This document shows positions 18,513 to 54,213 of a DNA stretch of 64,000 nucleotides, one piece after another. The stretch is taken from contig JAGTQE010000006.1 in the NCBI GenBank assembly GCA_018396635.1, positions 1 to 64,000 on the forward strand. Direction: 5' to 3'. The DNA comes from Candidatus Bathyarchaeota archaeon. GTDB taxonomy: Archaea; Thermoproteota; Bathyarchaeia; Bathyarchaeales; DTEX01. Position numbers and translations under genes: made by a program. Under the pieces are notes generated by a model, which was not told where the DNA came from, did no database searches, and worked only from the letters and a program-made list of their open reading frames with translations. Position 1 is the stretch's first letter; the number at the start of each line of letters is the position of its first letter.

Positions 18513-19853
18513 TTACTGCTGGAATTGTGGGAGAAACTCTTTGTGGGCTTCAATATACTCGTCTAGAAGTTTCTTAGCTACGCTTAATGTTGGAACCATT
18601 GGATCCAATGCTAGCGCTTGTAGCGCTATCTCCCTATCTCCAGACAAAGCCGCTTCAACGGTCAGCTCCTGCTGATATACCCTCTGCTGTAGTATTGTCT
18701 CAATCCCCTTAGGTAATCTCCCAACATTAACGCCTCTAAAGCCGAATGGGCCAACAATGGCTGGGATCTCAACTACGGCTTCATCTGGCAACCCACTTAT
18801 ACATCCCATGTTAGGTATGTTGACCCCCTCAAAGAATTGGACTCTACCGCTCATAATTATCTCCATTAGCTCGTAGACGAAAGAGTGCTCAGTTACACCC
18901 GCCCTCCTCTCAATAAGATCCTTTATGGGATACCTCCCCTCAGCCCAGCCTGAAACTAGATTCCAGACTCTATTCCGCCACTCCTCGCTGTAAATTGTAT
19001 TTCCTGGGAAGAGCTTAAGCCCATACTTTGCGCCATAATTTGTCTCTGGACGTAGGAAGTAGGGGAAGAACTCGGCGACATGGTGGTCTCCCTGAACCGG
19101 GTATAGGCCGAAGGTTTCCATAAGCTCAACTGAAACGTGGGCGTTAAAAGGTTTACCCTGCCTTAGGGCCTCATCTCTCATCTCCCTAATTCTCCGCTTA
19201 AACTCCGGGTAAACATTTTTTCCATTCACATACGCCTCAAGAATCCAGGTCAGATGATTTACGCCAGCGGATATGAACTTAACGTCCTCAGGCTTACATC
19301 CAATAACTCTCGATATTATATGGCGTGGGCCCCTTACACCAGTGCATAGCCCCACAATACCTACTTTCGTCACCTTCCTAACAGCCCTACATATCGTTGT
19401 TAGGGGATTTGATTCGTTGAAGACTATGGCCCCTGGGCATATCTTCTCGATATCTCGGCATATTTCAATTATTGGCGGTATGTGTCTAAGGGCCCTTGAG
19501 AAGCCTGCCGGGCCGACGGTGTCAGCCACAGTATGATATATTCCATATTTTTCAGCTATTTTAACATCGGTCTCTATGCCCTTAACCCCTCCAACAGCTA
19601 TTGTTATCACGACAAAATCGGCTTTTCTTAGGAGTTCTCCCCTATCTGTGCTGGCTTCAACGCTGATCTCAGCCCTAGTCTCATTAATTATTCTAGAGGC
19701 TATTTTCTCCATAATTTTAAGTCTCTCCTCATCTATGTCGACGAGCCCTATCTCTATACCCCTAAACACCTCGGAAGTAGCCATCTCAGCCAGCAGCTCC
19801 GGCGTAAACGCCAAGCTACCGGCCCCAATAACTACCAGCTTCAATCCCGCCAC
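18513..19853 (-). CDS. GH4-family glycosidase (alpha-galactosidase/6-phospho-glycosidase type)
   Basis: LVVIGAGSLAFTPELLAEM; IVFNESNPLTTICRAVRKVTKVGIVGLCTG; GVNHLTWI. Confidence 0.9.
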   Translation of the reverse strand: MAGLKLVVIGAGSLAFTPELLAEMATSEVFRGIEIGLVDIDEERLKIMEKIASRIINETRAEISVEASTDRGELLRKADFVVITIAVGGVKGIETDVKIAEKYGIYHTVADTVGPAGFSRALRHIPPIIEICRDIEKICPGAIVFNESNPLTTICRAVRKVTKVGIVGLCTGVRGPRHIISRVIGCKPEDVKFISAGVNHLTWILEAYVNGKNVYPEFKRRIREMRDEALRQGKPFNAHVSVELMETFGLYPVQGDHHVAEFFPYFLRPETNYGAKYGLKLFPGNTIYSEEWRNRVWNLVSGWAEGRYPIKDLIERRAGVTEHSFVYELMEIIMSGRVQFFEGVNIPNMGCISGLPDEAVVEIPAIVGPFGFRGVNVGRLPKGIETILQQRVYQQELTVEAALSGDREIALQALALDPMVPTLSVAKKLLDEYIEAHKEFLPQFQQ

Positions 19854-19950
19854 CCCAACGATGTAATCTGTGTTTTTAGCTAAATATGCTTTCCCATATC
19901 TATGCTAAGATACCAAAAATTATGGATTTCTTCTCCTTGCTGGCGCTACG

Positions 19951-19960
19951 CTTTTATATA
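19951..19960 (+). promoter_or_regulatory. TATA box for the secE-spt5-ribosomal protein operon
   Basis: CTTTTATATA about 37 nt upstream of the secE start. Confidence 0.5.
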
Positions 19961-19996
19961 GGCTTTCCTCTTTGAGTAAATGACGGTGGACTTAGT

Positions 19997-20194
19997 TTGG
20001 GACTAATGTCTTTTCTAAGGGCAAGCGTGAGGATGCTTAAGCTCGCTAGGAAGCCCGATAGGGATGAGCTTTGGCTATCTATAAAACTGTGTTTTTTAGG
20101 CGTAACTATAGTTGGATTAATAGGTTTCATAGTATTTATTATTGCAAACTTTATTAGGTCGAGTGTAACCTTTCTTATAGCAATGTTATCCTAG
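19997..20194 (+). CDS. secE: Preprotein translocase subunit SecE/Sec61-gamma
   Basis: 65-aa single-TM protein ..RMLKLARKPDRDELWLSIKLCFLGVTIVGLIGFIVFII; immediately upstream of spt5. Confidence 0.88.
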   Translation: MGLMSFLRASVRMLKLARKPDRDELWLSIKLCFLGVTIVGLIGFIVFIIANFIRSSVTFLIAMLS

Positions 20195-20196
20195 AA

Positions 20197-20667
20197 GTGG
20201 TCGGAATGAGCAGAGAAGAATCAACAAGAATATTCGCTATAAGCACAACAGTCGGCCAAGAGAAGAATGTCGCTAAGATAATAATGGGTCGCGTTGAAGC
20301 GAACAATATACCAGTAAAGGCTATAATTGTTCCTGAAAACCTGAAGGGTTATGTACTAATTGAAGCTGATGGGCCGCATCTCGTTGAGAGAGCTACCGCC
20401 AACATAAAGCATATCAAATCAAGGGTGCCAGGCATCCTATCCCTATCAGAGGTGGAAAAATACATTATAACTAAGCCAGTCATCAGCGAGCTAGATATTG
20501 ATGACATAGTTGAGGTTATAAGCGGCCCATTTAGAGGTATGAGGGCTAAGATAACGGACATAGATAGAAGTAAGGGTGAGGTAACCATAGAGCTGCTTGA
20601 AGCGTCATTCACGCTGCCAGTTACAGTCCACGCCGACTACGTGAGGCTGGTATCTAAAGGGAGGTGA
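20197..20667 (+). CDS. spt5: Transcription elongation factor Spt5/NusG
   Basis: NGN-like N-terminus [19 protein letters not shown] motif [31 protein letters not shown]. Confidence 0.95.
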
Positions 20668-21179
20668 TGAATATGCCAGCTGAGAAGAGAGTTGTTGAGC
20701 TAGTCGTTAGCGGCGGGCAGGCTACGGCTGGTCCGCCGATAGGTCCGGCCATAGGCCCTCTAGGAGTTAATGTTGTTGCTGTAGTGAATAAGATCAACGA
20801 GTTGACTAAAGAGTACTCTGGCATGAAGGTTCCAGTTAAGGTGATAATTGATCCGGAAACTAAGACTTTTGAGGTTGAGGTTGGGATACCGACTACTTCA
20901 GCCCTAATAATTAAGGAAGCTGGTATAAGTAAGGGGTCGGGGAAGCCTAATAGCGAGAGGGTTGGTAACCTATCTATGGCTCAAGTTATAAAGATTGCCA
21001 AGATAAAGCGCAGCAAGCTCCTTGCGAAAACCCTTAAGGCTGCCGTTAAGGAGATTATTGGCAGCTGTGTTAGCATGGGAGTCACTATTGATGGTAAGGA
21101 TCCTAAAATGGTTTTAAGGGAAATCGAGGAAGGAAGATATGACGATATGATTAGAAGATCTGAGGAGGAGAAACAATAA
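20664..21179 (+). CDS. rpl11: 50S ribosomal protein L11
   Basis: [23 protein letters not shown]. Confidence 0.97.
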
Positions 21180-51961: not shown

Positions 51962-53053
51962 ATGCAGCCGGTGTTAGAGATGGATGTTGGCGGCGAATAT
52001 ATAACTATGCTACACGGTGCAGGCGGCTCAGTCATGCATGAGCTCGTAAGAAAATACATTCTTAAGTTTTTCGGAGACCTTGAAAGCGGCAGCCTAGAGG
52101 TTCCACTTAAAGCCCTCGATGACGCCGCAGTCATTAACGGCATAGTTTTTAAGAGCGACTCACACGCGGTTAAACCAATATTTTTCCCAGGAGGAGATAT
52201 TGGTAGGCTGGCGGTTTCAGGAACCATCAATGATATTGCGGTTATGGGGGCTGAGCCAGCAGCCCTAGCATGCGGCCTCATACTTGAGGAGGGCTTGGCT
52301 TTAAGAGATTTGGAGCGCATACTGAGGAGTATGCGTGAGACCTGCATTGAGGCCGGAGTTGCCATCGTCACAGGCGATACCAAGGTTGTTGAGAAGGGTT
52401 CACTTGGCGGATGCGTAATAAACACATCCGGCATAGGGTTTGAGACCGAAGCCCTGAAAAAGAATATCAGCATCGTCAGGAGATATCGCGCCGACTTTAG
52501 GGCTAAGTGGCTTCTCGACTCAAACCTGAGGGCTGGAGATAAAATAATAGTCTCCGGAACTATAGGCGATCATGGCATAGCAGTCCTATCAGCTCAGGAG
52601 GGCTTGAGCTTTTATGGTGAGATAAGGTCTGATGTTAGGCCGTTGAACAGAATGATCCAGCGCATGCTCGGCGAGGTTGGCGGGGTTGTCGCCATGAAGG
52701 ATCCTACGCGGGGTGGGCTTGCAGACGCTTTAAATGAGTTTAGCGAGAAATCCAATTTAGGCATACTCATATATGAGGACAGGATACCGATAAGGGGGCC
52801 TGTTAAGGCCGCCTGCGATATGCTTGGTCTGGATCCGCTTGAGATAGGTAATGAGGGTAAGGTCGTGATCGGCGTAGTTAGGGAGAAGGCTGAGGAGGTT
52901 CTAGAGTTTCTCAGGGCAACCGATGAGGGCAGGGATGCTGCAATAATAGGTGAGGTCACAGATAAGTTTAATGGGGTGGCAATGGAGACAATTATAGGCG
53001 GAAAAAGGATTATTCCGAGACCCCTAGGAGACCCGATTCCAAGAATATGTTAG
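51962..53053 (+). CDS. hypE: Hydrogenase maturation protein HypE
   Basis: MLHGAGGSVMHELV; ATP-binding GTINDIAVMGAEP; C-terminal ..PRIC catalytic cysteine. Confidence 0.96.
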   Translation: MQPVLEMDVGGEYITMLHGAGGSVMHELVRKYILKFFGDLESGSLEVPLKALDDAAVINGIVFKSDSHAVKPIFFPGGDIGRLAVSGTINDIAVMGAEPAALACGLILEEGLALRDLERILRSMRETCIEAGVAIVTGDTKVVEKGSLGGCVINTSGIGFETEALKKNISIVRRYRADFRAKWLLDSNLRAGDKIIVSGTIGDHGIAVLSAQEGLSFYGEIRSDVRPLNRMIQRMLGEVGGVVAMKDPTRGGLADALNEFSEKSNLGILIYEDRIPIRGPVKAACDMLGLDPLEIGNEGKVVIGVVREKAEEVLEFLRATDEGRDAAIIGEVTDKFNGVAMETIIGGKRIIPRPLGDPIPRIC

Positions 53054-53055
53054 CA

Positions 53056-54213
53056 CTATTCCTCATACCAAGCCTTCCTAATGGTTTTAGGCCTTAAAGC
53101 AGTTATGCCTTCCAGAGCCTCTAGGAGTATCCTGGTTTTCTCAAGCTTCGGCTCCGGGAGCCTGTTCCCATAATTATCGTAGCCCACGTAGACTATCTCC
53201 GGCGAAATATTATAAATCCAATCTATGAACTCCTCATCGAAGTCTAAGATCGGCTCGATGACAACAGCCTTCCACCTCCAGTTGAGCCTAACCATGGCTT
53301 CGTACCGCTCCCTTGGCGGCGGAGCCCTAGTAAGCTTATAGTCCCGGTTAGTCTCCAACGTTACGCCGAGCACAACATTACCGCTGAACTTGTCCTCAAA
53401 CTCCAAGTACCTCTTCGGATTCTTTGTTAGGAAGAAGAATTTTGATCTGGGCTTCAACCTAACAACCCTCAGAACCTTATCAATCCATTCTACTGGAATC
53501 CAGTCGCCCCACATGTCACTCATATCGCAGTTATGAGACACAATTCCATTTGATATATAATTATGGGTTGTTGTTGTTAAATCATAGAGCACTTCTCCAG
53601 AACCCTCAACCTCGACTTCTCTAACCCTCTCCCAGCCAAGTTTAATGTCTCGGCATCTTAGGCGGCTTTCACAGTCTCCTTTATCGTTTTTCCTCTGCTT
53701 ATTGAGGCGGACACAAACGCCGTCCCCCACTTTTAAGTCTTTTGCCGCCACATATCCTCTGAGCGTTAACATCCTATGTGTTGGCGAGCAGATTATCTCT
53801 GTAGAGTCCGTAACTATCCTGTAAGCGACCTCCGTCTCAACCACTGTTTTAGCAATAACAGTGCTTGGCGTAATAAAGCCTCCATGTAATCCCAGAATTA
53901 CATCGCCAACGCCAACATCTTTAACTTCAGAAGGACCGTTAATAGTATCAATTAGCGTTTCTCCTGCTACACACACAAAGATAAATCTGCCGTTTGGAAT
54001 CCTCTGCCTAAGCCTCCACTCAGCGAGAGCAGGGCTGAAGCCGTGTGTTTTATAGGGTTCAACACCCATGGAAGCAAGCCTCTTAGCGAACTTCCTAGCC
54101 CAACAGTAGGAGCACATGTGTAGACAGCCCGTGATAGGGTTCCACGAATAATTTATCTCCTCAAACTTCACGTTAACTTCCCGCATCCGATCACATCTAT
54201 AAAGTAATCTCAC
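53056..54213 (-). CDS. DUF5131/phage Gp37-Gp68-type radical-SAM-like protein interrupted by a mini-intein (start probably 54186)
   Basis: INYSWNPITGCLHMCSYCWARKFAKRL (CxxxCxxC); CDMSDMWGDWIPVEW; intein-like block between residues 81 and 228. Confidence 0.9.
   Translation of the reverse strand: MRLLYRCDRMREVNVKFEEINYSWNPITGCLHMCSYCWARKFAKRLASMGVEPYKTHGFSPALAEWRLRQRIPNGRFIFVCVAGETLIDTINGPSEVKDVGVGDVILGLHGGFITPSTVIAKTVVETEVAYRIVTDSTEIICSPTHRMLTLRGYVAAKDLKVGDGVCVRLNKQRKNDKGDCESRLRCRDIKLGWERVREVEVEGSGEVLYDLTTTTHNYISNGIVSHNCDMSDMWGDWIPVEWIDKVLRVVRLKPRSKFFFLTKNPKRYLEFEDKFSGNVVLGVTLETNRDYKLTRAPPPRERYEAMVRLNWRWKAVVIEPILDFDEEFIDWIYNISPEIVYVGYDNYGNRLPEPKLEKTRILLEALEGITALRPKTIRKAWYEE
53530..53973 (-). 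mobile_element. Mini-intein, 148 aa, no homing-endonuclease domain evident
   Basis: N-splice CVAGETLI; block B SPTHRMLTLRGYV; block F/G YDLTTTTHNYISNGIVSHN followed by Cys+1. Confidence 0.93.

Follow-up and report, generated by a model that had tools for sequence, protein, structure and literature searches.

A 148-residue mini-intein interrupts a DUF5131 protein in the 64,000-nucleotide stretch of Candidatus Bathyarchaeota DNA analyzed here (the window), and we consider it very probable that this element arose by deletion from a dual-coding homing intein, in which a separate I-CreI-type endonuclease was encoded in the +1 frame of the intein's own DNA. More broadly, the window intein is likely to be the end product of an old and mobile intein family that pairs a host-frame splicing protein with an independently initiated +1-frame endonuclease, expressed in some members via an intein-internal promoter, and that has passed between viruses and archaeal chromosomes and entered several kinds of host protein.

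A mini-intein in an archaeal DUF5131 protein

The first-pass annotation had placed a mini-intein in this DUF5131, radical-SAM-like protein, and that reading is supported consistently by the intein boundaries and block motifs, by homologues with an empty site, and by family models and the predicted fold. Translation of the gene reproduced the proposed Cys1, Asn148 and Cys+1 codons and the length of 148 aa (Table 1). The Cys1/block A nucleophile, block B His, HN ending and Cys+1 that define class 1 inteins are all present; the proposed block B motif is SPTH with His66, and no homing endonuclease lies in the intein frame, as had been noted. Pfam Intein_splicing (PF14890) matches above its gathering score and NCBIfam intein_Cterm (TIGR01443) above its cut-off, which bears out the proposed family-model check. 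The intein modeled alone with 13 relatives gave a confident AlphaFold structure (pTM 0.82) with low confidence only at residues 94-104; the full-length precursor model was poor within the intein and was not used. Foldseek recovered the Hint fold, and the top solved structures were inteins or related Hint domains (Ssp DnaB, Mtu RecA, Npu DnaB). We regard the insert as confirmed as a class 1 mini-intein, predicted from its motifs and modeled fold to self-splice. In the precursor, an acyl shift at Cys1, transfer to Cys+1 and cyclization of Asn148, a chemistry expected from the motifs, would release the 148-aa intein and leave a ligated 237-aa DUF5131 CxxxCxxC protein.

Table 1. Features of the DUF5131 locus and two nested endonuclease ORFs (window positions unless a locus is named; asterisks are stops)
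Feature	Position	Strand	Evidence or remark
AIR synthase/HypE-like neighbor gene	51962..53053	+	
DUF5131/radical-SAM-like gene with intein, 385-aa precursor	53056..54213	-	GTG start as given
N-extein, 80 aa, with CxxxCxxC	53974..54213	-	Cys codons 54124-54126, 54112-54114, 54103-54105
Mini-intein, 148 aa, class 1	53530..53973	-	PF14890 E 1.6e-14; AlphaFold pLDDT 89.9; Foldseek E 2e-8 (intein structures)
Cys1, block A nucleophile, TGT	53971..53973	-	translation, motif comparison
Block B SPTH, His66 of intein	53776..53787	-	translation, motif comparison
Putative endonuclease-deletion scar, low-confidence loop, intein residues 94-104	53662..53694	-	564 nt absent relative to L002
Putative decayed C-terminal tail of former +1-frame LAGLIDADG ORF, KTIKETVKAA*DAETLN...LEKCSMI*	53577..53693	-	
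Asn148, block G, HN, AAC	53530..53532	-	translation, motif comparison
C-extein from Cys+1 (TGC 53527-53529), DUF5131 motif CDMSDMWGDW	53056..53529	-	
Nested endonuclease ORF, glycosyltransferase intein	L114:600-1322	-	
Nested endonuclease ORF, viral contig	L117:3995-4606	+	

The exteins match DUF5131 (PF07505; E 6e-16, 59.1 bits against a gathering cut-off of 28.9), the match being interrupted by Intein_splicing, and the radical SAM model PF04055 reaches only E 0.067. The CxxxCxxC reported in the extein corresponds to C30, C34 and C37, invariant across 15 aligned DUF5131 homologues. The GTG start is doubtful, since relatives begin near residue 10, and an ATG at 54184-54186 offers an alternative. 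The window genome has a single copy of this interrupted gene. Relatives found through GTDB were Candidatus Bathyarchaeota genomes, and six congeners hold the gene uninterrupted, reading FVSDMGDMWGDW across the site. These same-genus orthologues, with C-exteins 78-88% identical, align without a gap across V80/C229, as a true intein insertion had been predicted to require, and the insert is therefore precise. The +1 position is Ser in the intein-free genus relatives (FVSDMGDMWG), and a native Cys occurs only in more distant DUF5131 proteins. Several congeners share the neighborhood (HypE-like gene, hypA, NUBPL ATPase) in synteny, and the locus is therefore chromosomal. Among 121 phage DUF5131 records, the 60 listed run unbroken across the window intein site.

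An overlapping endonuclease at the same site

A congener (G003) carries at the window's site an intein of 336 aa (locus L002, 6196-7203) whose frame 0 is open for 1008 nt and whose splicing blocks are about 70% identical to those of the window intein. The middle of this intein resembles nothing in the intein frame. Its +1 frame holds a 229-aa ORF (L002:6467-7156(+)) with its own ATG within the intein and a stop within block F. This ORF contains YLAGLIDGDGTISF, with the motif LAGLIDGDG; compared with solved structures it matches I-MsoI (3fd2, E 1.9e-11) and also I-CreI, and it scores just under the cut-off for PF14528 (E 3.6e-4). When the endonuclease protein was held fixed and its codons were permuted synonymously, 9.1 intein-frame stops were expected and none is observed (P<5e-5; 20,000 trials, never zero); in the converse test, with the intein frame fixed, 7.2 stops were expected and zero again never arose (P<5e-5). 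Dual coding is thereby shown computationally for L002, a predicted splicing intein with a separate, overlapping LAGLIDADG endonuclease of the I-CreI/I-MsoI type, and the dual-coding arrangement at the site of the window intein comes from this one metagenome-assembled genome.

In ungapped comparison the two inteins match best if a single deletion of 564 nt (188 codons), covering most of the endonuclease, is placed in the window intein. Right of the deletion the window +1 frame, which here overlaps the intein frame and block F, reads KTIKETVKAA*DAETLN with a stop within, where L002 has KPTKEMMEIVQDVKALN. Because this tail is decayed, we take the direction to be deletion and not insertion. The scar falls in the flexible loop of the AlphaFold intein model. 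On the strength of the deletion, the decayed tail and the scar loop, we read the window mini-intein as originally dual-coding, with its endonuclease lost and its predicted splicing kept.

It is quite unlikely that decay went further, with splicing lost and the locus a decaying pseudogene. The element did lose its endonuclease, and inactive inteins are known, such as Arsp-FB24 Arth_1007 (PMC3196547), but every splicing residue is intact in an open frame, the splicing blocks have kept their similarity to L002, the AlphaFold model is confident, and the extein motifs and synteny are retained.

We propose that in the full form, exemplified by L002, the host frame would yield an intein that splices and whose long linker is poorly conserved, while the +1 frame of the same DNA would yield, from its own ATG, a separate single-LAGLIDADG homing endonuclease of the I-CreI type. 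Splicing would keep the host protein whole, and the separate endonuclease would spread the element by cutting alleles that lack the intein; we infer both this homing and the independent initiation of the endonuclease. In the window lineage, the 564-nt in-frame deletion would have taken most of the endonuclease and left a splicing-only element, which should no longer spread by itself.

Recurrence and expression of nested endonucleases

Searching 398 genomes of the phylum turned up L114, a glycosyltransferase intein from another archaeal family with a similar ORF in the matching frame. Endonuclease profiles run on viral contigs then added L117/L118, L201-L206, L210 and L211, the L117/L118 sequence being identical in two separate IMG/VR metagenome records. 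Only profiles succeeded here, single-sequence scans of the viral contigs with the window intein or the L002 or L114 endonuclease having returned no matches. The class consists of 11 dual-coding inteins (two on archaeal chromosomes, nine on viral contigs), drawn from metagenome-assembled genomes and viral contigs. Their hosts fall into three protein families, DUF5131 for L002 and glycosyltransferases or DUF2201 metallopeptidase/VWA-like proteins for the other ten.

Nesting was seen for 11 of 196 distinct endonuclease-family ORFs (371 loci), in every case in the +1 frame of an ORF with a Hint C-terminal match; the remaining 185 lie outside any long out-of-frame ORF. Dual coding was significant at each of the 11 loci (P from <5e-5 to 0.0055 over matched stretches). 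Their +1 open runs extend over 204-269 codons; in inteins of the same genomes that carry the endonuclease in frame, used as controls, no +1 or +2 run exceeds 52 codons. The endonuclease frame is more conserved than the intein frame in all 55 pairs (mean 30% vs 14.5%), so that what the intein frame encodes across the overlap resembles a linker free of stops. Cys1, the HN end and a Cys or Ser at +1 are kept in 12/12 inteins. L203 and L206 have RDN at the block B position where His is normal, which makes their splicing less certain. On the endonuclease tree, the nested state needs two changes vs 10.4 with shuffled labels (0/500 shuffles), which suggests that nesting arose once or twice and then spread from host to host.

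Overlaps in L196, L258, L259 and L263 were rejected as dual coding; these loci are GC-rich, with P(0 stops) of about 0.33. Free-standing relatives of the endonuclease were also seen. The only one found in a phage isolate is Anedea gp24; another (L071 1378-1944) lies immediately after a PCNA gene and overlaps its 3' end.

The recurrence bears on a simpler account, in which the window holds an ordinary mini-intein whose ancestral endonuclease was in frame, and the out-of-frame reading of L002 reflects two compensating frameshifts or assembly errors. An in-frame endonuclease is the usual arrangement and is present at two other DUF5131 sites, and L002 is one assembly at the window's site. We nevertheless judge this account highly improbable: a shifted endonuclease would bring about 9 stops into the intein frame, whereas L002 has none; ten other loci, L117/L118 in two separate records among them, share the arrangement and the frame; and the ATG start of the nested ORFs is conserved. 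The endonuclease is found in the +1 frame in L002 and ten others and decayed in the window, not fused in the intein frame.

How the endonuclease would be made is a separate question. The uniform frame (11/11) and a Shine-Dalgarno-like motif before just 1 of the 11 internal starts could point to programmed +1 ribosomal frameshifting, which would produce an N-extein/N-intein/endonuclease fusion. A constant +1 frame does not alone imply frameshifting, however, because +1 needs fewer stop avoidances than the other alternative frame (9 vs about 30 in L002), and this could by itself fix the frame. The start Met is invariant in the 11 nested ORFs and is followed by Pro in six, which argues for initiation at the internal ATG. 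In L117 and L202 this ATG is preceded, 7 nt upstream, by TATAAT, with TTGACC or TTGACG at a spacing of 18 or 17, respectively, a consensus sigma-70 promoter; such a promoter precedes 13 of 18,945 ATGs in the background, and copies of the L117/L202 loci themselves are among those counted. It would give a leaderless endonuclease message. This clear promoter signal is confined to 2 of the 11 dual-coding inteins, and no expression signal was identified at the internal starts of the archaeal members. We favor internal initiation and consider frameshifting unlikely, though less so than the in-frame ancestor discussed above.

Intein traffic in DUF5131 and relation to known systems

Within the genus, the DUF5131 gene occurs in three states: empty, carrying the window intein type (window, G003/L002), or carrying an unrelated intein 7 residues downstream (DMWG/C...N/SWVP, in G004/L015 and G007/L004/L011). 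This downstream intein has LAGLIDADG-like motifs in frame, with a weak PF14528 match. A third site, just ahead of the last Cys in CxxxCxxC, is occupied in another Bathyarchaeia family (G240-G242), where the intein (L068:457-2115(+), L293, L294) has an ordinary in-frame endonuclease with two motifs. DUF5131 has thus been invaded by inteins at three sites within Bathyarchaeia. In gene trees every intein carrier has a nearby empty-site relative, and these inteins therefore appear to have been gained or lost repeatedly, without distinction between gain and loss. The window genome's other intein (L088; G000:C35, about 19250-20690) lies just past the Cys motif of a putative PflA-like radical SAM protein, so labeled from its sequence, and has homologous matches in G003, G004 and G006.

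Inteins, mini-inteins, intein-free alleles and LAGLIDADG endonucleases are well known, and inteins are described as one polypeptide with both splicing and homing functions. The window intein shares the Hint fold, Cys1, block B His, HN end, Cys+1 and lack of an endonuclease with class 1 mini-inteins such as the Mtu RecA splicing domain, the Ssp DnaB mini-intein and gp41-1, and it differs in its new host protein and in a scar that appears traceable to an out-of-frame endonuclease. In full inteins with in-frame LAGLIDADG endonucleases, the endonuclease coding region lies between blocks B and F, and this holds for dual-coding inteins too. In the latter, however, the linker read in the intein frame is not an endonuclease; the enzyme would instead be translated from its own ATG as a separate I-CreI/I-MsoI-like polypeptide with a single LAGLIDADG motif. 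I-CreI and I-MsoI have a single LAGLIDADG domain like the nested endonucleases (E down to 1.9e-11), and the known enzymes come from group I introns in organellar rRNA genes, not from within an intein. The Rv2578c-family radical SAM intein (NF038136) also resides in a radical-SAM-like protein, and its intein part matches the window at E 9e-14; the score is far below the model cut-off and the host family is different, and profile coordinates suggest that this intein probably sits at another site. We also considered mycobacteriophage Catera Gp206 as a known DUF5131 intein, and rejected it, as papers on it do not name the host as DUF5131.

The nearest precedent is the ShiLan domain/Pacc40 insertion in phage methylases, where an out-of-frame HNH endonuclease is hidden in an insert whose host frame remains open (PMC11855218). 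Both systems share an out-of-frame homing endonuclease in such an insert, but the ShiLan insert lacks a splicing domain and is not removed from the protein, whereas dual-coding inteins have complete Hint motifs, a LAGLIDADG enzyme and other hosts, including ones on archaeal chromosomes. Our search of open-access papers for an intein with an out-of-frame endonuclease returned only the ShiLan work and a phage announcement, and inteins with an endonuclease in an overlapping second frame were not found, which makes them hitherto undescribed in the searchable open-access literature.

Annotation pipelines that read only the intein frame will miss such endonucleases. Where splicing and homing share DNA but not a reading frame, endonuclease supply could be uncoupled from host-protein synthesis. 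The family is a natural system for testing how splicing elements gain and lose homing endonucleases, and for testing overlapping coding at an extreme, with about 200-230 codons under stop avoidance. With empty sites, a full dual-coding intein and a deleted mini-intein in the same gene of one archaeal genus, the homing cycle becomes directly testable.
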